NCBI GenBank assembly: GCA_937127375.1
Contig: CAKZMA010000093.1
Location: forward strand, 1 to 36,926
Source of the DNA: an uncultured Coleofasciculus sp.
GTDB lineage: Bacteria > Cyanobacteriota > Cyanobacteriia > Cyanobacteriales > Coleofasciculaceae
DNA: 36,926 nucleotides
Direction of reading: 5' to 3'
The notes under the pieces were generated by a model. It saw only the letters and a list, made by a program, of their open reading frames with translations, was not told the DNA's origin and searched no databases. The translations under genes and the position numbers were made by a program. Every line of letters begins with the position of its first letter. Position 1 is the stretch's first letter. Positions 10,794 through 35,073 of the stretch are shown here, piece after piece.

Positions 10794-10821
10794 ACAAATG
10801 ACAAATGACAAATGACAAATG
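10794..10821. repeat. Heptanucleotide tandem repeat acaaatg x4
   Basis: Four exact consecutive copies of acaaatg immediately downstream of the gene 8 stop (which is at 10827 on the minus strand). Different in sequence from the agggaac array 100 bases away but with the same 7-base period. Confidence 0.85.
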
Positions 10822-10826
10822 ACTAC

Positions 10827-15422: not shown

Positions 15423-15430
15423 AGTATTAA

Positions 15431-15434
15431 CTCC
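15431..15434 (-). promoter_or_regulatory. Shine-Dalgarno of gene 8
   Basis: GGAG on the minus strand, 8 bases before ATG at 15422. Confidence 0.6.
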
Positions 15435-15513
15435 ATTTTATTGAACTGAGTATTTTAGCCAAAATAAAATCTCATCTTTTACTAAGGCTATATTTATCTC
15501 ACGTTTAAAACCT

Positions 15514-16924: not shown

Positions 16925-17932
16925 TTAGCTAACAAAAGGTTCTGCCATTCCGACTACAACTTTCCGCGAACCAATGAACGGCTTTCTACCATGAGCAGAT
17001 AGCATATTGTCTAACATCAATACATCTCCTTCTTGCCAAGAAAAGACAACAGTTTCTTGTTGATAGATTTCACGAATTTCATCTAATACAGAAGCTTCAA
17101 TTGGAGAGCCATCACCATAATAAGCATTGCGGGGAATGTTTTCTTCTTCCATCATTGAAAGCAATGTTTGGTGAACTTCTGAATTTAAACTGGAGACATG
17201 GAACAAATGAGCTTGGTTAAACCACACTGTTTCACCTGTTTTAGGATGTGTGGCAACGGCTTGGCAGACTTGACGAGTCCTTAAATGATTACCATTTTTC
17301 CACTCGAAGTCAATGCCAACCTTCTGGCAGTACTGTTCTAATTCTAATTTATTTTTTGTCTGAAAAACATCCTCCCATGAAAGATCTAATTTGTCAACAT
17401 AATTTCGCACATACAGCACCTTATTTTTGATGAATTTATCTTTAATCTTGGGGTCGATGCGTTGAAAAACTCTTCGACTATCTGCAATCGGTGTTTCTCC
17501 TCCCTGTTGAGCTGATTTTAGGCAGCAAAACCAGATTTTCATGGGCCAGCTTAAAGAGTAAGCCATCTCATTATGTAAAGGAATCGATTGAGTGGCTGGA
17601 TATTCAGTTGAAGTATAGATTTTACCGCTAACCTGACTGCGCGGGGTTGAACGATAAGAATAGTCTAGCAACTTTCCAGAAATAGTTTGGATAAATTGCT
17701 CCAATTGAGCGACTTCTGTAATGTCAAAGTTCCGGAACAAAATACCGCCATGCTGCAACAGCCAAGTCTCGATCACATCTCGATTGCTGGCTACCCAAGT
17801 GACCAAATTAATGCCTTCAACGGTGGGTTGAATCACTAAAGGCAGTGGCTGTTCGGGCTGAAACAATGTGACCTTAACTAGGTCGGTTGGCGATACTTTG
17901 ACGGCTTGGCGTCTAGTTGTTTTGAATTTCAT
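16925..17932 (-). CDS. TauD/SyrP-like Fe(II)/2-oxoglutarate dioxygenase, probable aspartyl beta-hydroxylase
   Basis: A 335-residue TauD/TfdA-family non-heme iron oxygenase. The iron facial triad is visible: H120 and E122 in LHNE, distal His314 in SAHGR, and a 2-oxoglutarate-binding Arg323 in GSRKVVVGM. The sequence is colinear with the C-terminal domain of gene 9 throughout (GETPI, YVRNY, HPKTGE, NAYYGDGSPIE against HVYYGDGTPIE). Its place between a terminal C domain (gene 5) and an interface-A(Asp)-PCP protein (gene 8) fits the interface-dependent beta-hydroxylases that act on carrier-bound Asp in beta-hydroxyaspartate siderophore pathways. The inferred reaction is 3-hydroxylation of Asp tethered to gene 8. 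Its basic N-terminus (MKFKTTRRQAVKV) resembles the linker that joins C to TauD in gene 9 (KFSKFKTIKPKAV), so the gene looks like a split-off domain. No clear Shine-Dalgarno was seen. A short direct repeat (caggagt) lies in the 44-base gap upstream. Confidence 0.93.
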   Translation of the reverse strand: MKFKTTRRQAVKVSPTDLVKVTLFQPEQPLPLVIQPTVEGINLVTWVASNRDVIETWLLQHGGILFRNFDITEVAQLEQFIQTISGKLLDYSYRSTPRSQVSGKIYTSTEYPATQSIPLHNEMAYSLSWPMKIWFCCLKSAQQGGETPIADSRRVFQRIDPKIKDKFIKNKVLYVRNYVDKLDLSWEDVFQTKNKLELEQYCQKVGIDFEWKNGNHLRTRQVCQAVATHPKTGETVWFNQAHLFHVSSLNSEVHQTLLSMMEEENIPRNAYYGDGSPIEASVLDEIREIYQQETVVFSWQEGDVLMLDNMLSAHGRKPFIGSRKVVVGMAEPFVS

Positions 17933-17976: not shown

Positions 17977-20900
17977 TTAACGTTTAGTTGGATTTCGTCG
18001 GATGTTTCCAAGTTTTTTACGGCGTGCTTTTTTGAACTCTTGTTCTTGGATAAGCTGCTGCTGCTTTTCGGCATTTTCCAAGACTTCCACTAGCGAATTA
18101 ATCTGAATGTCGGGCTGTTTAATCACCGTATCGAGCAACGTTTCGTACAATCGAACCATACGAGCGATCGCTGATGCTTCAAACAAATCGGTTTTATACT
18201 CGAAGAAACCTGTTAAACCTTCAGGTGTCTCTGTTAAATCAAGCTTTAGATCGTACCGTGCTACCTCAGTTTCTACTTCTATAAGGTTGAGCGTTAGACC
18301 TGGAAGTTCTACAGTTGGCATGGGAGCATTCTGGAGAACAAACCAGACTTGAAACAGGGGATTGTGTCCGAGATGACGCTCTGGCTGTAACTCTGCCATG
18401 AGCTTCTCGAAGGGTAAATCTTGATGGGCGTAAGCTCCCAAAGCGACTTCCCGCACCCGCCTTAAAACATCCCGAAAACTGGGATTACCCGATAAATCAG
18501 TACGTAAGACAAGAGTATTCACAAAAAATCCAATCAGTTTCTCCGTTTCGCGTCGGTTGCGATTGGCGATGGGTGAACCAACGGCAATATCTTCTTGCTT
18601 ACTGTAGCGGTAGAGTAAGGTTTTGAATGCCGCTAATAGAGTCATAAACAGGGTGACACCTGCCCGCTGACTGAGTTTTTTGAGTGCTTCTGTTAAGGCT
18701 GAGGACAAGGCAAAGCGATGCTTTTTCCCGGTAGAGGATGGGGTGGAAGAGCTAGTGCGATCGCTAGAGAATGTCAGTACGGGCGGGATTGTTCCCAGTT
18801 GTCGCTTCCAGTAAGTTAGCTGAGTTTCTAATACTTCCCTTTGCAACCACTGTCGCTGCCAGACGGCGAAATCTGCATATTGTATGGGTAGCTCTGGCAA
18901 TGGGGAGAGTTGCCCTTGAGAGAAGGCATTGTACAGGGTTGCCAGTTCTCGGAAAAACACTCCAGCAGACCAGCCATCTGTAACAATGTGATGGACATTT
19001 AACACCAGTAAATGTTCCTGCGGATTGAGTTGCAACAACATCCATCGCAGCAATGGGCTTTGAGTTAAGTCGAAGGGTTGTTGGCTCCACTGCGTAACTA
19101 ACTGTTGAACTTTTTGCGCTCGCTCAGCCTCTGACAACTCCTCTAGATTTATCACAGGCAGCTTCATGGTTAGGGATGGAGCAATCACCTGAACGGCTTG
19201 CCCATCAACGACACAGAAAGTTGTGCGTAAAGCTTCGTGGCGACGCACGATTTCGTTTAAAGTTTGTTCTAGCGCTGCCACATTCAGGGAACCAACGAAG
19301 TGTAAAGCCCCTGGCATGGTATAGGCTAAACTACCTGGCTGTAGTTGCTCCAACAACCACAGTCTTTCTTGTGAAAATGACAGAGGTAGCTTGCCGTTTC
19401 GAGAAATGCGATTGATAGGAGGAGCATTTTGTCCTGCTTCGGACTTAAGCGTCTCTTGGATAGCGGTAGCTAACCCAGCGACTGTCGGCTCCTCAAACAA
19501 GCGACGCAGAGGCAGTTCTACCTCAAAGCAATTCTCTAATCGAGAAATCAATTGGGTAGCTAACAGGGAATGTCCGCCCAACTCAAAGAAATTATCGTAA
19601 ATCCCAACTGGCTCGACACCGAGAATTTGCACCCACATTCCCACAACCGCTTCCTCGACTGGGTTGCGTGGTGGCACAAAAGTTCTTTGCCCATAATCAT
19701 TACCAACATCAGGTGCAGGAAGATCACGGCGATTAACCTTACCATTCGGTGTCAAGGGAAGTGTTTCTAATCGGACAAAGGCGGACGGTATCATATAGTG
19801 AGGTAGCTTTTGTGCAAAGAACTGACGTAGTTCGTGAGTTAAATCGGCTGAAGGGACTTGAACGACTATATAGGCAGCTAAGTACTGATTATCCGGTTCA
19901 TCCTCCCGGACGATCGCAACCGCTTGTGCCACAGCCGGATGTTGACTCAATACCGCTTCAATCTCTCCGAGTTCAATGCGAAAGCCGCGTAATTTCACCT
20001 GATAATCGGTTCGCCCCAGGTACTCAAGGGTGCCATCACTGCGGTAACGAGCCAAGTCTCCAGTTTTATAGAGCCTTCCGCCAACAGGATGAAGGATAAA
20101 CCTTTGCGTCGTCAGTTCAGGACGGTTGAGGTATCCTCGTGCTACTCCAGCACCACCGATATATAGTTCACCCGGAACCCCAATCGGTACGGGTTGCCCA
20201 AACGAGTCGAGTAAATAAATGGTTGTGTTGGCAATGGGGCGTCCAATCGGTACTAAAGATTTCTCCAGTTGAGTCGCCTCTAGCTGGTAAGCGGTTGACC
20301 AAATGGTGGTTTCTGTCGGGCCGTACAAGTTCCATACCGCAGCACCTCTTACCAGTAACTGTGCTGCCAAGTCACGGGGTAAAGCTTCGCCACCACAGAG
20401 AATTTTCAACTCCTGACTGCCTTGCCACCCTGCTGCCAGTAACATCCGCCATGTGGCTGGGGTTGCTTGCATTACAGTGGCACCTGATGCTGTCAGAGAT
20501 TGGATCAGCTTTTTCCCATCCGTAGCAGTTTCTCGGCTAGCGAGTACAACACGCGCACCCGTAATCAGGGGTAAATACAGTTCTAGGGCGGCAATATCAA
20601 AGGATATGGTCGTAATTGCCAGAAGAATGTCAGATGCGGTTAATCCTGGCTGCCGTGCCATTGAGGTTAAGAAGTTGACGACAGCACCATGAGGAATTTG
20701 TACTCCTTTGGGGAGTCCTGTAGAGCCTGAGGTGTAGATGAGGTAAGCCAGATTCTTTGGTGTGGCGCAATGAACGGGGTTATCTACACTGTTTTGGCGA
20801 ATCGTTTCCCAATCTGTATCTAAGCAGAGAACCTGTGCTTGATGCTGGGGTAGGTTGGCAAGCAACGGCTGTTGCGTCAACACAATCGCCACCTGGGAGT

Positions 20901-23900
20901 CGGATAACATAAACGCTAGGCGCTCTTGGGGATAGGCTGGATCTAAGGGGACATAGGCTCCACCCGCTTTGAGAATGCCCAAGAGTCCAACTATCATTTC
21001 TAGCGATCGCTCTACGTAGATGCCCACCAATTCCTCTGGCCTCACACCAAGCTGTTGTAGGTGGTGTGCTAGTTGATTGGCTCGCTGATTCAGCTCTTGA
21101 TAGGTTAATTGTTGACCTGCAAACACCACTGCCACAGCATCGGGGGTGCGCTCCACCTGAGCCTCAAATAGCGCATGAATACATAGGTTGAGAGGATAGT
21201 CAGTCTGGGTATTGTTCCACTCGCAAAGCAGCGTATTGTACTCCGCTTCAGGCAAAAGCGGTAACTCATAAAGATGGTGATCGGGATCGGTGACAAGCCC
21301 ACAGAGCAATGTCTGCAAATGTCCTGCCATTCGGGCGATCGTACCTGCCTCGAATAAGTCAGTACTGTACTCGAAGGTGCCAATCAGCCCAGAATCGGTT
21401 TCTTCTATGTACAAAGTCAAATCAAACATTGCCGTAGTTCTGTCGCTCTCTACAGCACTCAAAGTCAAACCCGACAACCTTATCTCTGACTTGGGTGTAT
21501 TCTGAAGCACAAACATAACCTGGAACAGTGGATTGTAACTGAGGTTCCGCTGCGGCTGTAGTTCCTCAACCAGCTTCTCAAAAGGCAAATCTTGGTGAGC
21601 ATAGGCTCCCAAAGCCACTTCGCGTATCCGACTCAACAACTCTCGGAAAGAGGGATTGCCAGATAAATCAGTCCGTAGCACCAGGGTATTGACAAAAAAG
21701 CCGATGAGTCCTTCGAGTTCGGCTCGGTTGCGGTTGGCGACGGGGGAACCCACCACAATATCCTCGCTTCCCGTGTAGCGGTATAGCAGAGTCTTGAACG
21801 CTGCCAGCAGGGTCATAAACAGTGTGCTTCCTTCTTGCTGGCTTAAGGATTTGAGGGCAATAGATTGCTCTTGGGAAAGTACAAACGTATAGGTGGCACC
21901 CTGGAAGGTTTGAACGGCGGGTCGCGGGTAGTCAGTAGGTAACTCTATTACTGTCGGTGCGCCCTCAAGGTGTTGCCGCCAGTAAGCAAGCTGAGCCGCC
22001 AACACCTCTCCCTGTAGCCACTGCCGTTGCCAAGCTGCGAAGTCTACGTACTGAATTGGTAGTTCAGGGAGGGGTGAGGATTGCTGATGACAAAAGGCTT
22101 GATACAGTACAGACAATTCCTGTACGAGTACATCAATCGACCAACCATCAGAGGCAATATGGTGCATGGTGAATAAGGCGATATGCTCCTGTTCACCGAG
22201 GCGAAGTAATTTGACCCGAAGCATGAGGTCGGTTTTCAGGTCAAAAGGTTGTTGCGCTTCTGCTCTAATCAGTTCTTGGACTTTCGTTTCTTGTTGGGCA
22301 GTTGGTAACTCACTGAGGTCGAGTACGGGCAAGGGTAGTGTGGTTACTGATGAGATGACGGGTTCAGGTTGCTCGTCTACAGTCTTGATATGAGTTCGCA
22401 AGACTTCATGGCGACGGAGAATTTCGTTGAGACTCTGTGCTAAGGCGGCTTGATTGAGCTGTCCCTGTAAACGCACAGCCGCAGCCATGTTGTAAAAGGT
22501 ATTGTGGACTTCTAACTGGGACAGGAACCATAACCGTTGTTGTGCAAAGGATAGGGTTAATTTGCCATCCCTGGAAATGCGCTGAATGGGGGGGGCATCC
22601 AACCCTAACCCAGCCTGATTGGCGCGTTCAATGTCTTTGGCTAATCCAGCAACTGTCGGTTCCTCAAACAATCGACGCAGAGGCAGTTCTACCTCAAAGA
22701 CTTGCCGCACCTGGGAAATAACACGAGTAGCAAGAAGGGAGTGTCCACCTAACTCGAAGAAATTGTCGTGAATGCCTACTGTTTCAACGCCCAGAACCTC
22801 TGCCCAAATCCCAGCTAGCATTTCTTCAACAGGGGTAGAAGGCGCAACAAATGTGCTTTCACGCTGAAGTTGTTTCAGATCAGGTGCAGGCAAAGCACGA
22901 CGATCTACCTTACCACTAGGAGCGATCGGCAAACTCTCCAACACGACAAAAGCTGAGGGCAGCATATGCTGGGGCAACCGTTCTTTCAGGAAGTTACGCA
23001 GTTGTGGCATCAGTTCGCTGCTGATTGCTGAGGTGTTATGTAGCGATCGAGTTTCCAAGTGCAACACTACATAAGCGACTAAACGCTTGTTACCAGGACT
23101 ATCTTCCCTAACGACAACGACATTTTCTCCTACCGCTGAATGCTGACTGAGTAACGCCTCAATTTCTCCCAGTTCAATGCGGAAACCACGAATTTTTACT
23201 TGGTCATCAATCCGCCCTAAAAACTCAATAGTTCCATCAGGTAACCACCTTCCCAAGTCTCCAGTTTTGTAAATTAAGTCCCTGTTCGTTCCTGGTAACG
23301 GTTTAGCCGTACTTGGAAACGGGTTGGGAACAAAGCTGAGATTAGTTTTCTCTTCATTTTTCCAATACCCCTCACCCACTCCATATCCTGAGACACAAAT
23401 CTCTCCCGGAACTCCTATTGGGACTAAGTTCATCTGAGAGTCAAGGATATAAAGATTTAAATTAGCTAAAGGCTTACCAATGGGTACTGTTCGTTGGTTT
23501 TCCGGTAAAGGCTTTTCAATGATGAACTGAGTAATATCATCAGCCGCTTCAGTAGGCCCGTAAGCATTAACGACCTTAATTGACGGATACAAATGCAGAC
23601 ACTGATTGACCAGAGCTACCGACGCCGATTCTCCCGTCACCATGATCCACTTCAGATCAGGTAATAATCTTTCTTGAGGAGATAAACGGGAAGCATAATT
23701 TAATAGAGCGGTAAGAACGACGGGCACTAATTCTATAATCGTGAGTTTCTCTTGTTTAAGAACTTGGAATAACTTTTCTGGATTAGAAACCGTCTCTGTA
23801 TCTACGACAACTGTCTTTCCACCAATTAAAAGCGATGCCAAAAATTGCCAAACTGAAATATCCGATGAAGCTGGAGCGCTTTGCAAAAAACTATACTCTT

Positions 23901-25368
23901 CAGTAAATTCGAGAGCATCAAACTCGGCATAGATATGATTAATTGCACCACCATGTTTAATAATGGCACCTTTGGGGAATCCAGTTGAACCAGATGTATA
24001 AATCATGTAAGCAGGGTCAACCCCCCGATTGTTCAAACCTAGATTCTCATCCGGAAGGTTATCAAAATCGTGTGGGTCAAATATAGTAATTTCAGAAAGC
24101 GTTTCACTCTCTCCTAAATTAGGTTGAGTATCTAAACTTATTAGGTATTTTAATTGAGAGCAATATTCAATTAAATTGATGATCGTTTTTAATAGATAAG
24201 AATTTGTTAAGAGAACGCGGACTTCACTATTCGATAGCATATACCTGATTCTTTCTGGAGGATATGTACTATCAATAGGCACATAAACTCCTCCCACTTT
24301 CAATATAGCAAGTATAGCTATTAAAAAACTGATATTACGCTCGTTTAGGATACCAACGAATTCTCCTTGCCTAACTCCTAAATTTTGGAGTAATCTAGCT
24401 AATTGATTAGCTTTTTGATTGAGTTCTTGATAAGTGAGTTTCGCCCCTTTACAAACTACGGCTGTTTTATTGGGCGTCTGATATACCTGCTCCTCAAATA
24501 AGTGATGAATCGTCTGAGAAACTGGATAGTTTTGAGAATTGTGATTAAAATCTTTAAGTAATTGCTGCTTATCCGATTCTTTTAATAAATCAATATTCGA
24601 CAGCTTTATATTGATATTCTGAAAAACATTTTCGATTGCAGTGACATAAGATTTACAAAATAATTTAATTGTTTTATTGCAAAAAACAGATTCCTTGTAG
24701 TCAACTCTACACCGAATATTATTTTCTGCAACACCAAAAGAAAAGGTTATATCATTGTTTAAACTTAGTATATCTTTTGAGTCATGGATATTTTCCAATA
24801 AAACACAAATATTAAAAATTGAGCAGCGGCTTTTAAGCTGTGGCAATTTTAAGAGTTGAACTAATTGTTCAACAGAATAGCCTTGATGGTTATAAGCACT
24901 AATTGTAGTCTCTTTAACTTTAAGCAGTAAATCTTTGAAAGTAATTTGATTATCTACACTAAATCGCAAAGGTACAGCTTTATGGTCTAAACCATCATAT
25001 TTTTTTTGCTTATAACTAGGAGAGCCGACAATTAAATCAGTAGTGCTTGTGTAGTCTTGCAGTAATACAATGAGAACTGCTAAAAGGACTAGATAGATGG
25101 AGAAATAAGAGTTTTTTGTAAACTTAATAATAAATTCAGATGATTTAATGGGTAAATCAAAGGTAACATACTCATTCTTAATGGCAGCAGAATTATGTCT
25201 TAAATAATCAGGAATTAGATTAGTTTCTGGTAATTCTCCAGAGAGTTGTTTTAACCAGTAGATTCTCCGAGCAAGTAAGACTTGGCAAGGCTCAGACAAG
25301 TTCTTTGCCAATTTATCAACTGCTTGTTGAGTAAGAACTTCTTTTGGATCATTTATTTGAATACTCAT
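17977..25368 (-). CDS. NRPS: half-C-A(Dab)-PCP-C-A(Gly)-PCP-C
   Basis: A 2463-residue dimodular synthetase. Residues ~1-280 hold only the second half of a C domain: from the YWLKQLSGELP region through weakened later motifs (TTDLIVGSP, YNHQGYSVEQL), with no HHxxxDG half. A1 (~288-840) code is D-I-W-E-M-T-A-D-D plus K, matching 2,4-diaminobutyrate codes, which agrees with the Dab aminotransferase gene nearby. PCP1 LGGHSLL ~873. C2 ~943-1385 with HHIASDG ~1071. A2 (~1400-1890) code DILQLGLIW, glycine. PCP2 ~1928. C3 ~1996-2420 with HHIVTDG ~2126, then a Lys/Arg-rich tail to the stop. C3 has no A-PCP after it in cis and should act on the Asp-loaded PCP of gene 8; the hydroxylase gene follows 44 bases later. 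A GAGGAA Shine-Dalgarno 7 bases before ATG supports the start, so the half-C is not a missed longer frame. The first ~2 kb are AT-rich. Confidence 0.95.
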   Translation of the reverse strand: MSIQINDPKEVLTQQAVDKLAKNLSEPCQVLLARRIYWLKQLSGELPETNLIPDYLRHNSAAIKNEYVTFDLPIKSSEFIIKFTKNSYFSIYLVLLAVLIVLLQDYTSTTDLIVGSPSYKQKKYDGLDHKAVPLRFSVDNQITFKDLLLKVKETTISAYNHQGYSVEQLVQLLKLPQLKSRCSIFNICVLLENIHDSKDILSLNNDITFSFGVAENNIRCRVDYKESVFCNKTIKLFCKSYVTAIENVFQNINIKLSNIDLLKESDKQQLLKDFNHNSQNYPVSQTIHHLFEEQVYQTPNKTAVVCKGAKLTYQELNQKANQLARLLQNLGVRQGEFVGILNERNISFLIAILAILKVGGVYVPIDSTYPPERIRYMLSNSEVRVLLTNSYLLKTIINLIEYCSQLKYLISLDTQPNLGESETLSEITIFDPHDFDNLPDENLGLNNRGVDPAYMIYTSGSTGFPKGAIIKHGGAINHIYAEFDALEFTEEYSFLQSAPASSDISVWQFLASLLIGGKTVVVDTETVSNPEKLFQVLKQEKLTIIELVPVVLTALLNYASRLSPQERLLPDLKWIMVTGESASVALVNQCLHLYPSIKVVNAYGPTEAADDITQFIIEKPLPENQRTVPIGKPLANLNLYILDSQMNLVPIGVPGEICVSGYGVGEGYWKNEEKTNLSFVPNPFPSTAKPLPGTNRDLIYKTGDLGRWLPDGTIEFLGRIDDQVKIRGFRIELGEIEALLSQHSAVGENVVVVREDSPGNKRLVAYVVLHLETRSLHNTSAISSELMPQLRNFLKERLPQHMLPSAFVVLESLPIAPSGKVDRRALPAPDLKQLQRESTFVAPSTPVEEMLAGIWAEVLGVETVGIHDNFFELGGHSLLATRVISQVRQVFEVELPLRRLFEEPTVAGLAKDIERANQAGLGLDAPPIQRISRDGKLTLSFAQQRLWFLSQLEVHNTFYNMAAAVRLQGQLNQAALAQSLNEILRRHEVLRTHIKTVDEQPEPVISSVTTLPLPVLDLSELPTAQQETKVQELIRAEAQQPFDLKTDLMLRVKLLRLGEQEHIALFTMHHIASDGWSIDVLVQELSVLYQAFCHQQSSPLPELPIQYVDFAAWQRQWLQGEVLAAQLAYWRQHLEGAPTVIELPTDYPRPAVQTFQGATYTFVLSQEQSIALKSLSQQEGSTLFMTLLAAFKTLLYRYTGSEDIVVGSPVANRNRAELEGLIGFFVNTLVLRTDLSGNPSFRELLSRIREVALGAYAHQDLPFEKLVEELQPQRNLSYNPLFQVMFVLQNTPKSEIRLSGLTLSAVESDRTTAMFDLTLYIEETDSGLIGTFEYSTDLFEAGTIARMAGHLQTLLCGLVTDPDHHLYELPLLPEAEYNTLLCEWNNTQTDYPLNLCIHALFEAQVERTPDAVAVVFAGQQLTYQELNQRANQLAHHLQQLGVRPEELVGIYVERSLEMIVGLLGILKAGGAYVPLDPAYPQERLAFMLSDSQVAIVLTQQPLLANLPQHQAQVLCLDTDWETIRQNSVDNPVHCATPKNLAYLIYTSGSTGLPKGVQIPHGAVVNFLTSMARQPGLTASDILLAITTISFDIAALELYLPLITGARVVLASRETATDGKKLIQSLTASGATVMQATPATWRMLLAAGWQGSQELKILCGGEALPRDLAAQLLVRGAAVWNLYGPTETTIWSTAYQLEATQLEKSLVPIGRPIANTTIYLLDSFGQPVPIGVPGELYIGGAGVARGYLNRPELTTQRFILHPVGGRLYKTGDLARYRSDGTLEYLGRTDYQVKLRGFRIELGEIEAVLSQHPAVAQAVAIVREDEPDNQYLAAYIVVQVPSADLTHELRQFFAQKLPHYMIPSAFVRLETLPLTPNGKVNRRDLPAPDVGNDYGQRTFVPPRNPVEEAVVGMWVQILGVEPVGIYDNFFELGGHSLLATQLISRLENCFEVELPLRRLFEEPTVAGLATAIQETLKSEAGQNAPPINRISRNGKLPLSFSQERLWLLEQLQPGSLAYTMPGALHFVGSLNVAALEQTLNEIVRRHEALRTTFCVVDGQAVQVIAPSLTMKLPVINLEELSEAERAQKVQQLVTQWSQQPFDLTQSPLLRWMLLQLNPQEHLLVLNVHHIVTDGWSAGVFFRELATLYNAFSQGQLSPLPELPIQYADFAVWQRQWLQREVLETQLTYWKRQLGTIPPVLTFSSDRTSSSTPSSTGKKHRFALSSALTEALKKLSQRAGVTLFMTLLAAFKTLLYRYSKQEDIAVGSPIANRNRRETEKLIGFFVNTLVLRTDLSGNPSFRDVLRRVREVALGAYAHQDLPFEKLMAELQPERHLGHNPLFQVWFVLQNAPMPTVELPGLTLNLIEVETEVARYDLKLDLTETPEGLTGFFEYKTDLFEASAIARMVRLYETLLDTVIKQPDIQINSLVEVLENAEKQQQLIQEQEFKKARRKKLGNIRRNPTKR

Positions 25369-25424: not shown

Positions 25425-26822
25425 TTAATTACATAAACTAAAATCAAAAAATACTTCTTTTTCTAAATCTGAACTTACATTTAACTGATTTATCTTTAAC
25501 AAAGATAAGTCTTTGAGGCGTACTTCAGGATTAGCAACAATATTTTGAAGCAATATTTCTATGTGTTCCAAGATCCCAACAATCGTTTCCTTGTCAAAGC
25601 GGTGGCTATAATATGCAATTTCTATTCCTAGTTTTGAACTTGGATAAAAGACAATATTGAGTGGATAATTCGTCCAGTAAAAGTTGCTATGGAGTTCTAG
25701 CTCTATATCTTCCCATTCCGGTAAACTCTCATTATTGGTGACTTTCTCGAACACTACTAAACTCTCGAACAAAGAGCGATCGCGCGGCACTTCACTCCAC
25801 CCTTGAATCTTGATCAGTGGACTGTATTCGTACTGACGCATTTCCACCAGTTGCTCCTGAAGCTGTTTGAGCCAAGACAGTAGATACTGTTCTCGATCAA
25901 CCTCGATCCATACAGGTAAACTGTTGATTAACATCCCAATCACCGAATCAGCCCCTTTTAGGTCTACTGGACGACCAGCAACAGTACATCCATAAACTAC
26001 TTTTTGTTCATCAGTGTAGTCACTGAGCAGCAAAGCCCAAACTCCCTGCAATAGCGTGAATAATGTGAGTTTATGTTGGCGAGCAAATAACTGTAATGCC
26101 GCTGTAGAATCTTTTGATAGATAGGTGATTTGATGAGCGACTTTTTCTTCCTGGCTGGATAAGTTCTCAACATCCAAATTAGTTAAGGAAGTAGTAGATT
26201 TTAATCCTTTTAGCTTCTGTTGCCAGAAAACCTCCGCTTTAGATAAGTCTTGCTTTTGTAACCAAGCGATGTAGTCGCCAAAAGAACTACTAACTGCAAA
26301 TGAAATATCTTTCCCCTTACAAAAGGCTTGATATAGTTGACCAACTTCCTGAAAAATTAATGCAAGTGACCAACCATCTGCAATGATAAAGTGTGCGCTA
26401 AAGACAAATTCGTAATAAGTCTCGCTAAACTCAAACAGATTCAGCCGCATCAGGAAGTCTTGGGATAAATCAAAACCTTGTTTACGGTCTTCTTCCAGAA
26501 ATGCTTCTAATCTTTTGTGCTGTTCGACTGGCTCTATTCCCCGCCAATTGTGCTGGTTTAGGGGTACTACTACTTGATTATACACAATCTGCACAGGTTT
26601 TTCAATATCTTCCCAATAGAAATTGGTACGCAAGCTGGTGTGCCGATTGACTACTTCCTGCCAAGCCCGGTGAAAAGCATTAACATTAAGCTTGCCACGC
26701 AAAGACAAAGCCATCTGAACTAAATATAATGAACTCAAGTCAGGAGCATAAGTACAGTGAAAAAGGATACCTTCCTGTAGCGGCGATAGTTCGTAAATAT
26801 CTTGAATTTTTTCGTTTTCCAT
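25425..26822 (-). CDS. Free-standing condensation domain with mutated catalytic motif
   Basis: A 465-residue protein that is a complete C domain and nothing else. Its N-terminus (KIQDIYELSPLQEGILFH) and overall sequence closely resemble the first C domain of gene 9 (NIQDIYELSPAQHGILFH), which follows an E domain and so should be a DCL C domain. The active-site motif HHxxxDG reads H-F-I-I-A-D-G: the second His, the key catalytic residue, is Phe (codon TTT on the coding strand). Gene 9 has HHLILDG at the same place. The protein ends just after the domain (FDFSLCN), where gene 9 runs on into its A domain. By position it lies between the Gly-loaded PCP of gene 3 and the Dab module of gene 5. It may be a structural or docking relic, or may work by another mechanism. 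No strong Shine-Dalgarno is visible. Base composition is AT-rich compared with the surrounding modules. Confidence 0.92.
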   Translation of the reverse strand: MENEKIQDIYELSPLQEGILFHCTYAPDLSSLYLVQMALSLRGKLNVNAFHRAWQEVVNRHTSLRTNFYWEDIEKPVQIVYNQVVVPLNQHNWRGIEPVEQHKRLEAFLEEDRKQGFDLSQDFLMRLNLFEFSETYYEFVFSAHFIIADGWSLALIFQEVGQLYQAFCKGKDISFAVSSSFGDYIAWLQKQDLSKAEVFWQQKLKGLKSTTSLTNLDVENLSSQEEKVAHQITYLSKDSTAALQLFARQHKLTLFTLLQGVWALLLSDYTDEQKVVYGCTVAGRPVDLKGADSVIGMLINSLPVWIEVDREQYLLSWLKQLQEQLVEMRQYEYSPLIKIQGWSEVPRDRSLFESLVVFEKVTNNESLPEWEDIELELHSNFYWTNYPLNIVFYPSSKLGIEIAYYSHRFDKETIVGILEHIEILLQNIVANPEVRLKDLSLLKINQLNVSSDLEKEVFFDFSLCN

Positions 26823-26905
26823 CTTGAATTTATGAGTAAATTGGACGCATTAGTTTCATGGCGTTTTTGCTTATTTGAGCAGTGCTAACTGCAGTTTTAT
26901 AGCTA

Positions 26906-29900
26906 CTAACCGCTTGTATTTTTACTCGATCGCTTGATTTTATTTAGTATTTTATTAAGGTCTTTTTGATTGAGATGAGCTTGGGGAAAGTTTGAAGAAG
27001 TGTAGCTTTTAGATTCATTTGATTTTGGAATTGAAGACATCGGCTCAGTTTCTACTACTTGTTCAGACTGGAAAGTTTGTAACATATTGGCTACTGCTGC
27101 TAACTCAGCAATTGTCTGGTTATCAAATAACTGTTTTGGAGTAAGCGACAAACCCGTTTGATTAGCTTTGTAGATAATTTTGATGCTTACAAATGAATCT
27201 CCACCTAATTCAAAAAAGTTATCGTGGATGCCAATTCTCTCAACACCGAGAACTTGACTCCAAATTTCGGATAGAACTTGCTCCACTGGAGTCCTTGGAG
27301 GCACAAAGGTGCCTTCAGGTCTAAGGTTGGTGAAATCTGGTACAGGCAGCGCTTTGCGGTCTACCTTACCATTGGGAGTGAGTGGTAGTGACTTCAGCCT
27401 TACAAATAGCGACGGCACCATATAGTTAGGTAACTTTTTCTCTAAAAAGCTCCGCAGTTCATGGGTTATATCCTCGAAGGACACCTGACCAACGATATAA
27501 GCCACCAAACGCTTGTTACCCGGTTCATCCTCGCGCAATATCACCACCGCTTGTTCTACGGCTGGGTGTTGCCGCAGCAGGGATTCAATTTCCCCTAACT
27601 CAATCCGGAAGCCACGCAGTTTTACCTGATGATCAATGCGCTCGATGTACTCAATCGTGCCATCGGCAAGGTAACGCGCCAAGTCCCCCGTCTTGTACAA
27701 CCTCCCAGCTACCGGATGGTGGATTAACCTTTGTGCCATCAGTTCGGGGCGATTTAAATAGCCTCGCGCCAGTCCCGCACCACCGATGTGCAACTCACCG
27801 GGAATACCAATCGGCACGGGTTGCCCAGAGGTATCGAGTAGATACACCTGAGTATTAGCAATCGGACTTCCAATCGGCACTGTCGCTTTGACCAATTTGG
27901 TTGCCTCTACCTGGCAGACAGTAGACCAAATCGTGGTTTCCGTCGGTCCGTACAGGTTCCAGACCGCAGCACCTCTTGCCAATAACTGCTCGGCTAAATC
28001 GCGGGGTAATGCTTCGCCGCCACAGAGGATTTTCAACTGAGGACTACCTTGCCAACCCGCCGCCAGCAGCATTTGCCAAGTGGCTGGAGTCGCTTGCATC
28101 ACTGTTGCCCCCGCAGTAGTGAGCTGCTCGATGAGCTGTTTGCCATCGCTGGCAACTTCCCGACTAACTAATGCAACACGGGCACCCGTAATTAGAGGGA
28201 GGTAGAGTTCTAAGGCAGCAATATCAAAGGAGATAGAGGTAACAGCTAGGAGTACGTCAGTCTGTGTTAATCCTGGCTGGCGCTGCATGGAGGTTAAGAA
28301 GTTAACCACACCCCCATGGGGAATTTGTACCCCTTTAGGTTTTCCTGTGGAACCTGAGGTGTAGATGACGTAAGCTAGGTTTTCCGGTGTGGTGCTGCTA
28401 GTTGGGTTATCTGGGCTTTCTTGGCTGATGGTGTACCAATCTGTATCCAAGCAGACGACTTGTGCCTGATGAGAGGGTAGCCTAGAGAGTAACCGTTTCT
28501 GGGTCAGCAATACAGGCATTTGAGCATCTGACACCATCAAGGCAAGGCGTTGTTGAGGGTAGGCAGGGTCTAGGGGGACATAGGCTCCACCCGCTTTGAG
28601 GATGCCCAAAAGCCCTACTACCATCTCGATTGAGCGCTCAAGGCAAATCCCCACCAAGACTTCGGGTTTGACACCCAGCGTTTTCAGGTAGTGTGCCAGT
28701 TGATTGGCTCGTTGGTTAAGTTCTCGATAGGTGAGCTGTTCATCCTCAAACACCACTGCCACAGCATTAGGGGTACGCTCCACCTGGGCTTCAAATAGCT
28801 GATGAATACAGGCATTTTTGGGATAATCGGCTGCGGTTTGATTCCACTCCTCCCACAATTGATGCTGTTCGGCGGCACTTAACAGGGGTAAGTCACACAG
28901 GTGCTGGTCAGGATTGGCGACAATGCCTTCTAATAAGGTCTGAAAATGACCTACCATCCGAGCGATCGTGGCAGCCTCAAATAGGTCACTGTTGTACTCT
29001 AATCTTCCTGTGAGACCTGATTTCGTCTCTACCAAATCAAGAGTCAAGTCAAACTGTGCCGTCTTAGTCTCAACTCGTTCTAAAGGGCTTAGGGTTAAAC
29101 CCGGAAGCTCTAGGTTCGTTTTTGGGAAATTGAAATTTTGGAGAATAAACATCACCTGGAACAACGGCGGGTAACTCAAATCTCGTGCTATTTGTAATTC
29201 TTCTACGAGCTTTTCAAACGGCAAGTCTTGATGAGCATAAGCTCCCAAAGTTACCTCTTGCACCCGTTTTAACAATTCCCGAAAGCTGGGATTGCTAGAC
29301 AAATCAGTACGCAGCACCAAGGTGTTGACAAAAAAACCAATTAGCCCCTCTATTTCCGTTCGGTTGCGGTTAGCAATGGGCGAACCCACCAGAATGTCAT
29401 CAGCCCCCGTATAGCGATAGAGTAAGGTGTTGAATGCTGCCAGCAGTGTCATAAATAGAGTGGACTGTGTCTGCTGGCTTAAAGCTTTAAGTGCCTTGGT
29501 GAGCGTATTGGGCAGTATAAATAATTGGGTTGCACCTCGGAAGGTTTGAACTGGCGGTCGCGGACGGTCAGTGGGAAGTTGTAACAGGGTAGGAGCGCCA
29601 TCAAGTTGCTGCTTCCAGTAAGACAGCTCTTTGTTGAGTGTTTCCCCCTGCAAGTACTGCCTCTGCCATAGGGCGAAGTCGGCATATTGGATAGGTAATT
29701 CAGGCAACGGTGAAGCTTGACCTTTAGAGAAAGCGTCGTACAGTAAATTCAACTCATGGAAAAGTACCCTGCCAATCGACCATCCATCTGAGACAATGTG
29801 GTGCATCACGAGCAGCAGCAAATGTTCTGCATCTCCCAATTGCAGTAGTGTTACCCGCAATAATGGACCTTGTACTAGGTCAAATAAGCGTTGAGCTTCT

Positions 29901-30424
29901 TCGATAACCAGACGCTGTGCTTCAGCTTCCCGCTCGGCTTTGAGTATTCCTCGCAAATCTATCGGCGGCAGTGTAAAGGTTACGGTTGGTGAAATAACCT
30001 GAATGGGTTGACCATCGAGGTTCTTCAAGGTCGTTCGCAAGGCTTCGTGGCGCTGAATGATTTCCCTAAAACTTTGCTCTAGAACGTCTACTTGAAGCGC
30101 ACCAGTGATTTTAATTGTCCCAGCTAAGTGGTAAGCTGCATTTTCACCCTCTATTTGGTTGAGAAACCACATTCTTTGCTGGGCAAAAGATAAGGGTAAG
30201 TTCATGTCTCGTGAGACAGGCATAATCGTCTCACCCATAGAACTTGAAACATTATCAGTTTTTTGTAAAAACTTGATTATTTCTGCTTTTCGCTCTTGGA
30301 GTTGGGTTAGTAAATCGGGTGTTAGCGTCTCTTTTGGAGCGCTGTAACACAACTTGTCACCGTTAATCCATAGTTTCACGTCTAGACGGTGAAAGTCAGA
30401 TAAAAGCTTATCAATCTTTTTCAT
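26906..30424 (-). CDS. NRPS: TubC docking-C-A(Gly)-PCP, with an E-type tail but no E domain
   Basis: A 1172-residue module. Residues 1-55 (MKKIDKLLSDFHRLDVKLW onward) match the TubC N-terminal docking fold, suited to receive the chain from the PKS. C domain ~75-500 with intact HHIVSDG (~207), LCL-like. A domain ~541-1030; code D-I-L-Q-L-G-L-I-W plus K, the established glycine code. PCP at ~1072 has LGGDS, the form usually found before epimerase domains. Only ~65 residues follow, yet their end (LNQKDLNKILNKIKR) matches the end of gene 8 (VSQKDLNRLLGQIR), where it lies after a real E domain. This looks like clean loss of an E domain with the PCP core and donor docking tail kept; an E domain would be pointless on glycine. 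The A domain is very similar to the second A domain of gene 5. The start is fixed by the four-base overlap with the PKS stop. Confidence 0.95.
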   Translation of the reverse strand: MKKIDKLLSDFHRLDVKLWINGDKLCYSAPKETLTPDLLTQLQERKAEIIKFLQKTDNVSSSMGETIMPVSRDMNLPLSFAQQRMWFLNQIEGENAAYHLAGTIKITGALQVDVLEQSFREIIQRHEALRTTLKNLDGQPIQVISPTVTFTLPPIDLRGILKAEREAEAQRLVIEEAQRLFDLVQGPLLRVTLLQLGDAEHLLLLVMHHIVSDGWSIGRVLFHELNLLYDAFSKGQASPLPELPIQYADFALWQRQYLQGETLNKELSYWKQQLDGAPTLLQLPTDRPRPPVQTFRGATQLFILPNTLTKALKALSQQTQSTLFMTLLAAFNTLLYRYTGADDILVGSPIANRNRTEIEGLIGFFVNTLVLRTDLSSNPSFRELLKRVQEVTLGAYAHQDLPFEKLVEELQIARDLSYPPLFQVMFILQNFNFPKTNLELPGLTLSPLERVETKTAQFDLTLDLVETKSGLTGRLEYNSDLFEAATIARMVGHFQTLLEGIVANPDQHLCDLPLLSAAEQHQLWEEWNQTAADYPKNACIHQLFEAQVERTPNAVAVVFEDEQLTYRELNQRANQLAHYLKTLGVKPEVLVGICLERSIEMVVGLLGILKAGGAYVPLDPAYPQQRLALMVSDAQMPVLLTQKRLLSRLPSHQAQVVCLDTDWYTISQESPDNPTSSTTPENLAYVIYTSGSTGKPKGVQIPHGGVVNFLTSMQRQPGLTQTDVLLAVTSISFDIAALELYLPLITGARVALVSREVASDGKQLIEQLTTAGATVMQATPATWQMLLAAGWQGSPQLKILCGGEALPRDLAEQLLARGAAVWNLYGPTETTIWSTVCQVEATKLVKATVPIGSPIANTQVYLLDTSGQPVPIGIPGELHIGGAGLARGYLNRPELMAQRLIHHPVAGRLYKTGDLARYLADGTIEYIERIDHQVKLRGFRIELGEIESLLRQHPAVEQAVVILREDEPGNKRLVAYIVGQVSFEDITHELRSFLEKKLPNYMVPSLFVRLKSLPLTPNGKVDRKALPVPDFTNLRPEGTFVPPRTPVEQVLSEIWSQVLGVERIGIHDNFFELGGDSFVSIKIIYKANQTGLSLTPKQLFDNQTIAELAAVANMLQTFQSEQVVETEPMSSIPKSNESKSYTSSNFPQAHLNQKDLNKILNKIKRSSKNTSG
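30421..30424 (-). other. ATGA stop/start overlap of PKS and gene 3
   Basis: The TGA of the PKS and the ATG of the TubC-containing NRPS overlap by four bases, a common sign of translational coupling. It fits two proteins that must dock to each other in equal amounts. Confidence 0.9.
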
Positions 30425-33400
30425 ATTTTTCCCTCCTCGCGATCACCCACAGCAACAGGTATAACAGCGTTCAGTTGAGTCTCGATGTACTCCGACACAT
30501 CGGCTATTGTAGGAGCCTTAAAGAGAATGTTTACCGGAAACTCGACCTGGAACTTTTTACGTATCCGAGAAATAAGTTGGGTAGCCAATAAGGAATGTCC
30601 GCCCAGTTCAAAAAAGTTGTCGTAAATTCCTATCTGTTTCATTCCTAGAAGTTCTTGCCAAATATGAGAAATTGTTTGCTCAATTTCATTTCTGGGAGCT
30701 ATGTAATCATTCTGTAAATCTGGTCGCGAGTAAACAGAGAGCGCATTACTAGACTTGGACGCAGCCTTCTCGTGTGAAGATTCTAACTTAATCCATTGGT
30801 TAATCCTCGCTTGCAAATCACCCGTTGAAACGACAACCTGACTCAGCCCACTGTTAGATAAAAGACATTGAAAAGCCTTGACTCCTTCTTGGGAGTTAAT
30901 CGCAAATTCTGCTAAGGTTGAACCCCACGATGCACTCTTGGATGGATCTTCTCCAATTTGCCAGCTATCCCAATTTATGCTCATCCACGAGATAGAACGA
31001 GTTTGATGATGTTGCCGAGTAAACGCATCCATGAAAAGATTCGCTGATGAATAAGCAACAGACCCTAATCCCCCCAAAACCGTGGATAATGAGGAAAGCA
31101 ATACACAAAAGTTAATTTCTCGACCTTGCAAGAGTTTTTCTAATACTAATAATCCGTATACTTTGGGATGAAACTGTTTTTCGCAATTCGCCTCACTGGT
31201 ATTTTCAACTGTATTAAACTGTCCTCCTAAAATTCCAGCTGCATGGAATACACCATTAAGTTCACCAAAGCGTAACTCTACCTGATGGATGAGAGATTGC
31301 ATTTGTGTGAGGTTAGCTACATCCACACTGGCAATCAAAACTTCAGCGCCCAATGCTTCGAGTTCCCTGACTTTCCGAATTTTGCGGCTGATGCCATCTT
31401 GCTTGTCATGCGTTACCAGCCATTGTTCCCACTCGTCCTTTGCAGGAAAAGCTGAACGTCCTGTCAAGATGAGCTTGGCTTGTACCGTCTTTGCCAGATA
31501 TTCTGCTAGAACCAGCCCAATGCCGCCGAGTCCACCTGTAATCAGATAGACTCCTCCTTTCCTCAAGCGCGATGTCCCTTCAACCGCGTCTTCTAAATGA
31601 ATGGGTTCAAAGGTTTGTACCCAGCGATGATTTCCCCGATAGGCAATAATTCGGTCGGAAGATTGGATGGCGAGTTCTGCTAGTAGTTGATCTACCAGCT
31701 TCTCGGTAGCGGGAATAACAATATCAATGCTACGACAATTGAGGTTTGGATATTCTTGAGAAATGACGTTAACAGGCCCAAGTAACGTAGCTTTTTCCGG
31801 ACACAAGGTTTCCTCTCCTGTCACGTCCTGCAAGTTATTGGAAACAACCAAAATTTGAACGTCATCAGCAAGATTTTCTTTTCCGAGTGCTTGTGCGAGA
31901 AACAGCAAGCTATAGAATCCTAAATCTTGAGCGCAATCAATAAGTTCAATTTCTAATTCTGAGTGTCTATTTGGCTTAGATACAGAGCTAAAAATCCCTG
32001 TTTCTTTTTCAGTGACACTCCATAAATGAACAATCTTGCTGGGTCGCTTATCTTGGGTGATCAGTGCATCAACTAATGCTTTATAGTCATCTTTTTGCCG
32101 AGGATTAAGACTATATACACCATCGCTTAATTGACTGAATCCTGACCCAACTTTCACGATAATGACATCTTGACTTGCCTGTTGGAGGTGTTCTACTAGT
32201 TGGACACCCAAACCACACTCATCAACAAACACGAGTATGCTAGAGTGAACCGATGTGCCGTTCACTTTACAGGTGGAGGTAATGGAGCGTTTCCACGAAG
32301 GAACATAGAACCAATCAGCAATGTTTGGCTTTTTGCTCAACGTTACCTGGCGACTATTCGCTGATTCCTCTGGTGGGTCGATCCAATAGCGTTGGCGTTC
32401 AAAGGGGTAAGTGGGTAACGGGATGCGATAGCGAAGTCTTGCTGCTTTGAGCAGATCGCGTTGTTCATGAGCATAAAAACCCGACCAATCGACCTGAACT
32501 CCTTCTAGCCAGAGTTTGCCTAGGGTATTCAGTATAAATGCCACATCGGACTGTTCCTCCTGGGGATGGCGCAGGGAAGACAGCACCACTCGTTCAGTTG
32601 CCTGCTGTTTGGTCAAGGTGCTTAACGTTCGTCCTGGTCCCACTTCTAAGAAAATGGCTTGAGCATCCTTGAGTAACTCGCTAATACCTTCTGCAAACCG
32701 CACGCCTTGACGTAGATGCCTTGCCCAGTAATTGGGATCTGTGGCGTCTGCGGCGGTAATCCAAGTGCCAGTGACATTGGAAATAAAGGGGATTTGGGGA
32801 GGATTGAGCTTGACGGTATGAAGATGCTGGGTGAACGTCCCGATAATGGGGTTCATCATCGGCGAATGAAAGGCATGGGAGGTATGCAAGCGACGGTAGC
32901 CGATTCCCTTTGCCTCCAGTTGCTGTTCCAGTTGTTCTACTGCTTCCACTGAACCGGAAACCACACTTAAACAGGGTGCATTACTGGCAGCCAGAGCGAG
33001 TGGTTCACCTAAAAAGGGTTGCACCTCATCGGCAGATAAATTCACCGAAACCATTGCCCCGGAAGGCATTTGCTGCATCAACCGTCCCCGAGTGGCAACT
33101 AATGCCAAAGCATCTTCTAAACTGAAAACACCTGCCAGACAAGCGGCGACGTATTCCCCAATGCTATGCCCGATCAGGGCTTGGGGTTGCACTCCCCAGG
33201 ACATCCATAATTTAGCCAGGGCGTACTCGATCGCAAAAAGTACAGGTTGGGTAATCGCCGTTTGCTTGAGTTGGTCTGTTGCCTGTTCTACGTCTTCTGG
33301 GGCTGGATACAAACAGGAGCGCAAATCGATACCCAGATGAGGTTGGAGTAGGTCAAAACAGCGATCGCATTCTTCTCGGAATGTTGGTTCACTCTGATAC

Positions 33401-35073
33401 AGTTCCCGCCCCATGTTGACATACTGCGCTCCCTGTCCAGTACATAAGAACACAATCGAGCGATCGCTTGATTCCTGAAATTGGCTAAAAACTCGTTGCG
33501 GATTCCCTGATTCTAGGGCGTTTACGGCATCTTCAAGGTCTTGGGCGACGACCATGCGGCGATGCTCAAACCTCCGACGACCCACTTGGAGAGTGTAAGC
33601 GATATCCGCTAAGTTGAGGTCTGGATGCTGCTGTAAATGAGACGCCAGATTCCTGGTTGCTGTTGCCAAAGCCGAAGCCGTTTTAGCAGAAATCACCAAC
33701 AGATGAGACTGTCTCTCCTGTTGACCCGTTAAGGTATCAGTTGTCTCCAGAACCTTAGCCTCGACAGCAGGCGCTTCTTCCAGAATTACGTGGACATTTG
33801 TGCCGCCAAATCCGAAGGAACTCACCCCAGCACGGCGAGGAGTGCCATTCCTCTTCCATTCAGAACAGTGGGTATTCACATAAAAAGGGCTATTTGCAAA
33901 ATCAATTTGCGGATTGGGTGTCTCAAAATTCAGACTAGGAGGTAATACTTGATGATGCAGAGCTAAAGCCGTTTTAATTAAGCCCGTTATCCCAGCAGCA
34001 GCATCCAAATGCCCCACATTAGTTTTCACTGAACCGATCGCACAGTATCCTTTTTTATCAGTCGTGTCTCGAAATGCTCGCGTCATTGCTGCGATTTCAA
34101 TCGGGTCCCCCAAAGGAGTTCCGGTGCCATGGGTTTCCATATAGCTAATTGTGTCTGGCTCCACTTCAGCCATGAGTTGAGCCGCTCGAATGACCCGGGC
34201 TTGACCCTCTTCACTCGGCGCTGTGTAACCCACTTTTAACGCACCATCATTATTAATCGCTGAACCTTTGATCACCGTATAAATATAATCCCCATCCGCC
34301 AAAGCATCCTCGAGTCGTTTGAGGACAACTACACCAATTCCGTTCCCAGCAATTGTGCCATTTGCCTTGCTATCGAATGCTCGACAATGACCATCAGGAG
34401 AAACGATTTCCTCTGGTGATAGGGTTAACTCGTTCTGCGGAACTTTCACCGAAACACCAGCCGCCAAAGCCATATCACATTCGCCACTTAATAAACTTTG
34501 GCAGGCTAAATGAACGGCAACTAATGAACTGGAACAAGCCGTTCCTACACTAACACTCGGTCCCTTGAGATTTAATTTATAGGAAACGCGGGTCGGGACG
34601 TAATCCTTATCAATGCCAACCAGCGTTTGTAAGAATCCCCTAGATTCCATCAATTCCCGGTTAGGATAAAGGTTATGGAACGAGTAGGTACTCATCCCCA
34701 CACCCGCATAAACGCCGATGGGTCGTTCTTCTCGTTCAGTGTCATAGCCCGCATTTTCTAAAGCTTCCCAAGCACATTCTAGAAAGAGGCGGTGTTGGGG
34801 GTCCATGGCTTCCGCTTCTCTGGGGTTGAAGCCAAAAAATGAGGCATCAAATTGTTCAACATCCTCTAGGATAGAACCGGATTTGATCGTCTGGCGGGCG
34901 GGTTGATGACCCGTTGATGTTACCTGACTATTCTGTTGAACCGCTGGAAACTCGGTAATTAATTCAACACCATTTTGCAAATTTTCCCAAAATTGATCAA
35001 TGGTATGACTTTTCGGAAAACGACCGGAAATTCCGATGATGGCAATTTCTAATCCGTTTGGCTCGCTCGTCAT
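30421..35073 (-). CDS. Type I modular PKS: KS-AT(malonyl)-KR-ACP
   Basis: A 1550-residue single extension module that adds one C2 unit to the chain from the preceding NRPS. KS: residues ~8-435, active Cys180 in TACSSSL, His315 in HGTGTPLGDP, His355 in KTNVGH. AT: ~540-830, Ser637 in GHSIGEY, and HAFH at 733-736, the pattern of malonyl-CoA-specific ATs. A KR structural half-domain (~890-1150) precedes the catalytic KR with the NADPH motif TGGLGGIG (~1181) and a catalytic Tyr in AYSSAN (~1341). The LDD motif of B-type KRs is not seen, so alcohol stereochemistry cannot be called. No DH, ER or methyltransferase is visible, so a beta-hydroxyacyl product is expected. The carrier (~1470-1545) has LGGHSLL, resembling a PCP more than a classic ACP. 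The stop overlaps the start of the next gene (ATGA). The short C-terminal tail (VGDREEGKI) is a candidate partner for the next protein's TubC-like docking domain. Confidence 0.95.
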   Translation of the reverse strand: MTSEPNGLEIAIIGISGRFPKSHTIDQFWENLQNGVELITEFPAVQQNSQVTSTGHQPARQTIKSGSILEDVEQFDASFFGFNPREAEAMDPQHRLFLECAWEALENAGYDTEREERPIGVYAGVGMSTYSFHNLYPNRELMESRGFLQTLVGIDKDYVPTRVSYKLNLKGPSVSVGTACSSSLVAVHLACQSLLSGECDMALAAGVSVKVPQNELTLSPEEIVSPDGHCRAFDSKANGTIAGNGIGVVVLKRLEDALADGDYIYTVIKGSAINNDGALKVGYTAPSEEGQARVIRAAQLMAEVEPDTISYMETHGTGTPLGDPIEIAAMTRAFRDTTDKKGYCAIGSVKTNVGHLDAAAGITGLIKTALALHHQVLPPSLNFETPNPQIDFANSPFYVNTHCSEWKRNGTPRRAGVSSFGFGGTNVHVILEEAPAVEAKVLETTDTLTGQQERQSHLLVISAKTASALATATRNLASHLQQHPDLNLADIAYTLQVGRRRFEHRRMVVAQDLEDAVNALESGNPQRVFSQFQESSDRSIVFLCTGQGAQYVNMGRELYQSEPTFREECDRCFDLLQPHLGIDLRSCLYPAPEDVEQATDQLKQTAITQPVLFAIEYALAKLWMSWGVQPQALIGHSIGEYVAACLAGVFSLEDALALVATRGRLMQQMPSGAMVSVNLSADEVQPFLGEPLALAASNAPCLSVVSGSVEAVEQLEQQLEAKGIGYRRLHTSHAFHSPMMNPIIGTFTQHLHTVKLNPPQIPFISNVTGTWITAADATDPNYWARHLRQGVRFAEGISELLKDAQAIFLEVGPGRTLSTLTKQQATERVVLSSLRHPQEEQSDVAFILNTLGKLWLEGVQVDWSGFYAHEQRDLLKAARLRYRIPLPTYPFERQRYWIDPPEESANSRQVTLSKKPNIADWFYVPSWKRSITSTCKVNGTSVHSSILVFVDECGLGVQLVEHLQQASQDVIIVKVGSGFSQLSDGVYSLNPRQKDDYKALVDALITQDKRPSKIVHLWSVTEKETGIFSSVSKPNRHSELEIELIDCAQDLGFYSLLFLAQALGKENLADDVQILVVSNNLQDVTGEETLCPEKATLLGPVNVISQEYPNLNCRSIDIVIPATEKLVDQLLAELAIQSSDRIIAYRGNHRWVQTFEPIHLEDAVEGTSRLRKGGVYLITGGLGGIGLVLAEYLAKTVQAKLILTGRSAFPAKDEWEQWLVTHDKQDGISRKIRKVRELEALGAEVLIASVDVANLTQMQSLIHQVELRFGELNGVFHAAGILGGQFNTVENTSEANCEKQFHPKVYGLLVLEKLLQGREINFCVLLSSLSTVLGGLGSVAYSSANLFMDAFTRQHHQTRSISWMSINWDSWQIGEDPSKSASWGSTLAEFAINSQEGVKAFQCLLSNSGLSQVVVSTGDLQARINQWIKLESSHEKAASKSSNALSVYSRPDLQNDYIAPRNEIEQTISHIWQELLGMKQIGIYDNFFELGGHSLLATQLISRIRKKFQVEFPVNILFKAPTIADVSEYIETQLNAVIPVAVGDREEGKI

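Follow-up and report, generated by a model that had tools for sequence, protein, structure and literature searches.

The third gene of the cluster described here (gene 3) most probably descends from a protein ending in PCP, epimerisation (E) domain and COM donor, of which the pre-E type PCP and the C-terminal tail have been kept and the E domain has been lost. The window, i.e. the whole stretch of 36,926 nucleotides analysed, is spanned by a single NRPS/PKS cluster in which every gene lies on the minus strand. The features referred to below are:

35136-36926, minus strand, AMP ligase-PCP, open at the window end (Pfam)
30421-35073, minus strand, PKS with KS-AT-KR-ACP (Pfam)
26906-30424, minus strand, gene 3, TubC_N-C-A(Gly code)-PCP-tail, E absent, 1172 amino acids (Pfam; A code DILQLGLIW)
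27095-27277, minus strand, gene 3 PCP of the pre-E type, with LGGDS at 27194-27208 (Pfam and profile scores)
27005-27082, minus strand, gene 3 linker LQTFQSEQVVETEPMSSIPKSNESKS, site of the E domain in relatives
26909-27004, minus strand, gene 3 retained tail YTSSNFPQAHLNQKDLNKILNKIKRSSKNTSG, comprising E end, COM-donor lid and helix (profile score)
25425-26822, minus strand, gene 4, stand-alone C, predicted docking partner (Pfam; 60 homologous cassettes)
26757-26807, minus strand, N-terminal COM-acceptor region of gene 4, IQDIYELSPLQEGILFH, whose LSPLQEG fits the consensus (PMC11546977)
26373-26393, minus strand, HFIIADG of gene 4 in place of HHxxxDG, second His changed to Phe
17977-25368, minus strand, gene 5, partial C-A-PCP-C-A-PCP-C (Pfam)
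16925-17932, minus strand, TauD (Pfam)
15514-16797, minus strand, class III aminotransferase (Pfam)
10827-15422, minus strand, gene 8, C-A(Asp code)-PCP-E-tail, the E-bearing comparator within the cluster (Pfam, E motifs)
10830-10907, minus strand, gene 8 E end and tail GGYTPSDFQKANVSQKDLNRLLGQIR (aligned with PvdL)
5009-10588, minus strand, gene 9, C-A-PCP-C-TauD, partner of gene 8, start MKADNIQDIYELSP
125-4498, minus strand, gene 10, C-A-PCP-reductase (Pfam)

Between 125 and 36926 the cluster looks like a pathway for a beta-hydroxy-Asp lipopeptide metallophore, as predicted from its gene content. The siderophore-type features present are an AMP ligase start, a PKS, two Asp-code modules (genes 8 and 10), two TauD-family hydroxylases and a terminal reductase; further modules carry Gly and Dab codes. 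Throughout this work the Asp, Gly, Gln and Dab assignments are what we take the aligned specificity codes to mean from general knowledge. Comparison of 5009-16797 with the second E-bearing cassette of the sister genome (L107) showed that gene 9 is a complete C-A(Gly code)-PCP-C-TauD in the window, L107 having instead a stand-alone C, an aminotransferase and a C-lobe-A-PCP-C-TauD protein. A plasmid search with the window gave no match.

The PCP of gene 3 was scored with two HMMs built from related loci, one for pre-E PCPs and one for other PCPs, and reached 121.9 bits as pre-E versus 91.0 bits as other PCP; the difference of +30.9 bits bears out the first-pass annotation, which had read its LGGDS as the pre-E form. 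Among the other window PCPs tested, only that of gene 8 scores as pre-E, and it does precede an E domain. No E domain is found among the Pfam domains of gene 3. The C-terminal tail (last ~35 residues, YTSSNFPQAHLNQKDLNKILNKIKR) matches the E/COM-donor tail of E-bearing relatives, as had also been proposed: against a profile made solely from the last 60 residues of such relatives TSSNFPQAHLNQKDLNKILNKIK scores 44.3 bits, the best independent control reaching 9.6 bits (n = 1,321 controls, i.e. the C-terminal ends of further proteins encoded at the loci plus 1,000 shuffles). An extra control, L106, scores 40.3 bits and is the sister gene under a second locus number. With a combined PCP-linker-tail profile the window scores 152.7 bits and the next hit among 386 genomes drawn from the phylum 97 bits; within the window's own family the sister genome (G403) reaches 152.6 and the genome of L110 (G400) 137.1 bits. 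In the AlphaFold model of the C-terminal fragment of gene 3 residues 118-133 form a helix, but with a pLDDT of about 43, and the models (mean pLDDT 43 for this C-terminus, 36 for gene 4 alone) were too poor to be used.

The search for homologues of the stand-alone C covered 386 genomes drawn from the phylum, 22 from the family to which the window belongs and 218 from that of G278; 60 cassettes, from two cyanobacterial families, were readable together with their upstream partner. This partner ends in PCP-E-tail in 44/60 cassettes and in PCP-tail without E in 16/60; the E-less state of gene 3 is not unique among its relatives, and the PCP of the E-less partners is of the GDS type in 16/16. Eight additional loci are fused, with C directly behind the PCP and neither E nor tail. 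The relatives which the first-pass annotation had suggested looking for, with A(non-Gly)-PCP-E before a stand-alone C, do exist (e.g. L037, L038, L039, L124, L128-131, L133, L140 and L164). The same E-less arrangement as in the window is found in an independent assembly, the sister MAG UBA11370 (L035), whose gene 4 product is 90% identical; its copy of gene 3 (L035:6188-9811) has ~33 extra residues inside the A domain as compared to the window.

The usual neighbours of the stand-alone C are an aminotransferase and a C-lobe fragment-A-PCP protein with the A code DIWEM(V/T/S)ADD, which from general knowledge we take to be that of diaminobutyrate. Gene 5 likewise starts (about 24529-25368) with a C domain reduced to its C-terminal lobe, placed before a Dab-type A domain, and HHxxxDG is present in 0/65 such C-lobe units of relatives. 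Outside this cassette type, a 172 amino acid E-less PCP-tail protein precedes a stand-alone C (L183:5853-6371), and E-less C-A-PCP-tail proteins with Gln and Asp codes precede C-A-PCP proteins (L184:5419-8817 and L185:5698-9042, respectively). In L112 (8736-10390) ~1.65 kb carrying transposase-like ORFs, so called from reading the sequence, interrupts the E domain of a PKS module and leaves the rest of E plus tail as a separate frame of 400 amino acids. Several stand-alone C copies have internal stops (G547:C76, G426:C172, G426:C39, G493:C215, G521:C60), which suggests ongoing loss of the cassette in some genomes.

At the gene 3 junction the E remnant is recognisable on the C side, by the 44.3 bits given above, and non-significant on the N side. 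A profile search of the window linker for a remnant of the E N-terminus gave no reportable match, the linker of L035 reaching only 4.3 bits, and a resemblance of SIPKS to IPLTP, suggestive by eye of the E start, was dropped as non-significant. No E sequence was seen in the 83 bases that separate gene 3 from gene 4. Since the N-side breakpoint is undetectable in the window, an internal deletion and a recombination of the 3' end both fit gene 3. Of the earlier proposal that an E domain had been removed cleanly, the removal is supported, given the E-bearing kin and the remnants in relatives, and the word cleanly is not, as the N-side breakpoint is unrecognisable.

Recombination would imply that a Gly-type C-A body was joined to an already E-less PCP-tail 3' end, derived e.g. 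from the ancestor of L110, and that the scar predates the Gly module. E is lost in this reading too, in another order and by another mechanism; we regard it as possible but rather doubtful. L110, a locus with an E-less PKS partner, is sister to the window and L035 in the C-domain tree (support 100/99), so that E may have vanished before the Gly module arrived; both the unrecognisable N-side junction and the variation of upstream bodies within the family go in the same direction. On the other hand, the linker of L110 is only loosely like that of the window, so that separate losses fit too, and L151 and L142 share their body with E-bearing kin except for the A core. In these two E-less/E-bearing comparisons the A core is, judging from the identity profile, replaced by a Gly core: between L151 and L155 identity is 72-93% over C and the first part of A, drops to 33-53% in the A core and returns to 65-85% beyond it, and between L142 and L124 the A core is where identity falls, to 23-43%. 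Whether gene 3 had recently received its A core by conversion from a further Gly module of this cluster was considered; we do not propose it, as DNA identity to module 2 of gene 5 is 71-79% along the A domain and shows no sharp block.

Regarding the substrate, the A domain of gene 3 had initially been read as glycine and its code, DILQLGLIW, is one that we too take, from general knowledge, to be a Gly code. Glycine has no stereocentre. Integrity of E was called from motifs (second His, Glu of EGHGRE, NYLGQFD), so that a dead domain is here a motif judgement, and by these motifs E is intact in 19/26 non-Gly amino acid units, 0/9 Gly units and 0/34 PKS units. For Gly versus other amino acids Fisher's test gives p = 1.6e-4, with the rows being related and only three pairs independent, none of them discordant. 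PKS modules of the KS-AT-KR-PCP type which end in E all have a decayed EGHGRE (L040, L041, L042, L111, L116, L117, L121, L122, L125-L127, L137, L138, L141, L145-L147, L149, L161), and L143 combines a Gly-type code with a dead but undeleted E. As dead, undeleted E domains thus occur behind a Gly code and in polyketide modules, a sequence of substrate change, E decay and deletion was probably a frequent course in the family. Loss also occurs without Gly, since L164 (Asp code, E with its Glu lost) is sister to L148 (Asp code, E gone). A strict rule that E is lost only with Gly was dropped in view of E-less modules with Asp or Gln codes (L148, L185, L184 and the fused L043, L044 and L160). For gene 3 itself, E was plausibly lost because the module would now load glycine.

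The tail of gene 3 is under purifying selection. Between the window and L035 dN/dS is 0.075/0.477 (~0.16) in the tail, 0.26/0.55 (~0.47) in the linker and 0.043/0.437 in the PCP. A continuing role in docking predicts both selection on the tail and its retention in unfused, as against fused, E-less genes, and the tail is present in 17/17 unfused E-less genes and in 0/8 partners fused to C. These two observations, i.e. the ~0.16 of the tail against the 0.47 of the adjoining linker and the distribution of the tail, make it improbable that the tail is a dead leftover without present function, which might be thought because the active-site motif of gene 4 is degenerate and the whole step could be decaying. 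Among stand-alone C domains the second His of HHxxxDG has been lost in many separate lineages (HF, HM, HL, NL, SL); such His-less domains sometimes lie beside an intact E and are still conserved as full-length genes.

The distribution of the E-less partners was examined in trees of the C domain, used as a proxy for the history of two genes which are able to recombine. The C-domain tree, of 74 rows, requires eight changes of the E-less label, seven of them imposed by branches with good support, and three of the fused label; the AU test rejects a single clade of all seventeen E-less rows (p = 1.4e-52). The upstream PKS proteins, placed in a tree of their own, agree, with four E-less changes and two fusions. 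Remnants of E fused to the tail are found in L151/L152, L142, L120, L114/L115 and L118/L119, on both sides of the junction in L151/L152, L114/L115 and L118/L119. In L151 the junction reads SLTPIQ|FDFPEADLNQQDL, remnants of E being joined to the tail, and in L151 and L152 together AEQGLIT(D/G)LVSLTPIQ|FDFPEADLNQQDLERFLGKIN, the first residues of E fused to the last ones; the remnants are HCQSSEAKGFTTSDFPEA in L142 and QSLSAEKYTPSDF in L120, and the fused L136 keeps ~40 residues of the E start before its C domain. L113 and L111, as well as L118 and L116, differ at the DNA level by a single gap of about 1.3 kb. Breakpoints outside the window are known from sequence comparison, and the junction of L151 versus L155 was taken from the protein, as the DNA alignment misplaced the tail.

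Counts of changes alone give no direction; the direction is that of loss because remnants of E remain in E-less relatives. As judged from the trees and the junctions, the E-less state is evidently derived, with E lost independently at least seven times. The gene 3 junction had been described as a scar, a reading to which a broad family of native E-less proteins with the same PCP and tail would be the counter-example. Sixteen E-less partners besides the window do share this PCP type and tail, but since they are scattered over at least seven places and several have remnants they are repeated losses and not a native family, and the scar reading, as one of E loss, is supported. It is accordingly very improbable that the LGGDS PCP and tail never had an E domain and that E was gained elsewhere: such a native family is contradicted by the rejected single clade and by the E start and end sequences persisting in L151/L152, L142 and L136, and decaying E domains are common. 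An assembly or frameshift artefact, conceivable in a draft of 1596 contigs which is about 90% complete, is practically ruled out by the sister MAG UBA11370, in which the gene likewise lacks E and its linker has diverged, and by gene 3 being a single open frame.

For COM docking the published consensus is TPSD at the fusion of E and donor and L(T/S)P(M/L)QEG at the acceptor (PMC11546977). Gene 3 carries a TPSD-type motif, with TSSN where the consensus is TPSD, and a putative donor helix, and gene 4 carries the acceptor start LSPLQEG; the tail of gene 3 does not lie behind an E domain, and for this reason we call it a derived, E-less COM donor. In gene 8 the E motif set is intact, and E plus tail matches TycA (9bfd_A), BacC (9rde_A) and PvdL over ranges which extend into the tail. 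Solved relatives of gene 4 include McyB, PvdL, BacC E-COM-C and TycB1. Genes 4 and 9 both begin, a few residues in, with IQDIYELSP, which contains the shared acceptor region DIYELSP that the first-pass annotation had pointed out.

COM donors have been described as strictly co-occurring with E domains, the reason given being scaffolding between E and C; swapping of COM domains was expected to be restricted to E-C junctions, and a strong dependence of docking on contacts with the E body was suggested, which counts against a donor still docking in gene 3 (PMC12402864). No description of natural E-less COM donors was found in the literature searched, which was mostly without subscription papers.

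According to our preferred reading, the loss of E with retention of its flanks, the ancestor of gene 3 would have handed a D-configured residue to a stand-alone C of the DCL type (gene 4). The module would now read glycine and do without E, the pre-E PCP and the COM-donor tail being kept because the tail would still be needed to recruit gene 4. The Gly-loaded PCP would be brought to gene 4 by docking of the helix LNQKDLNKILNKIK on the N-terminal hand of gene 4, and the acyl-Gly chain would go on, with no epimerisation step, to gene 5 and its Dab-type module. We infer a tail that may still dock, a module that presumably loads Gly and a relaxed need for epimerisation that would have allowed the loss; in the family as a whole the course was probably often substrate change, E decay and deletion. 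More tentatively, pre-E PCP, COM-donor tail and stand-alone C might form an E-independent docking platform for varied upstream modules (amino acid, glycine, polyketide), in which E would be a passenger that decays where there is no stereocentre and the His-less C would be mainly an adaptor.

At least seven independent natural losses keeping the donor tail represent exceptions to the strict co-occurrence of COM donor and E, and suggest that a carrier protein may be followed at once by a functional tail, also where the carrier belongs to a polyketide module. Natural pairs with and without E (L151/L155, L118/L116) could serve to test the contribution of E to docking, and the natural PCP-tail junctions could be used for engineering. 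The checkable rule would be that with a substrate lacking an epimerisable centre E decays and then goes.

Compared with known systems, the cluster resembles those for cyanochelin-type siderophores (PMC12628792) in the FAAL-like AMP-ligase start, the PKS/NRPS composition, the TauD-type Asp hydroxylases, the E domain and the terminal reductase, and differs from them in the stand-alone C, the Dab-type module with a C-lobe fragment and the E-less Gly module. With TycA/TycB and the COM domains of BacC (Diecker et al. 2025, PMC12402864) gene 3 shares a tail at a TPSD-like E/donor junction, an amphipathic-looking C-terminal segment and a DCL-type partner starting with L(S/T)PLQEG, but its donor has no E ahead. 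In microcystin synthetases natural loss of the N-methyltransferase segment of mcyA, reported by Fewer et al. (2008) as cited in PMC8097286, is similar, as far as that citation goes, in that a tailoring domain is gone in frame and a cyanobacterial NRPS stays in use; there the domain is another one, and gene 3 keeps a docking tail beyond the loss, of which the family has recurrent cases. Gain of E by exchange of T-C for T(E)-E-DCL, together with A-core swapping, has been described by Baunach et al. (2021, PMC8097286). The special pre-E PCP, the DCL-type C and the A-core swaps are alike, and the direction is opposite: here E is lost, and pre-E PCP, tail and C stay.
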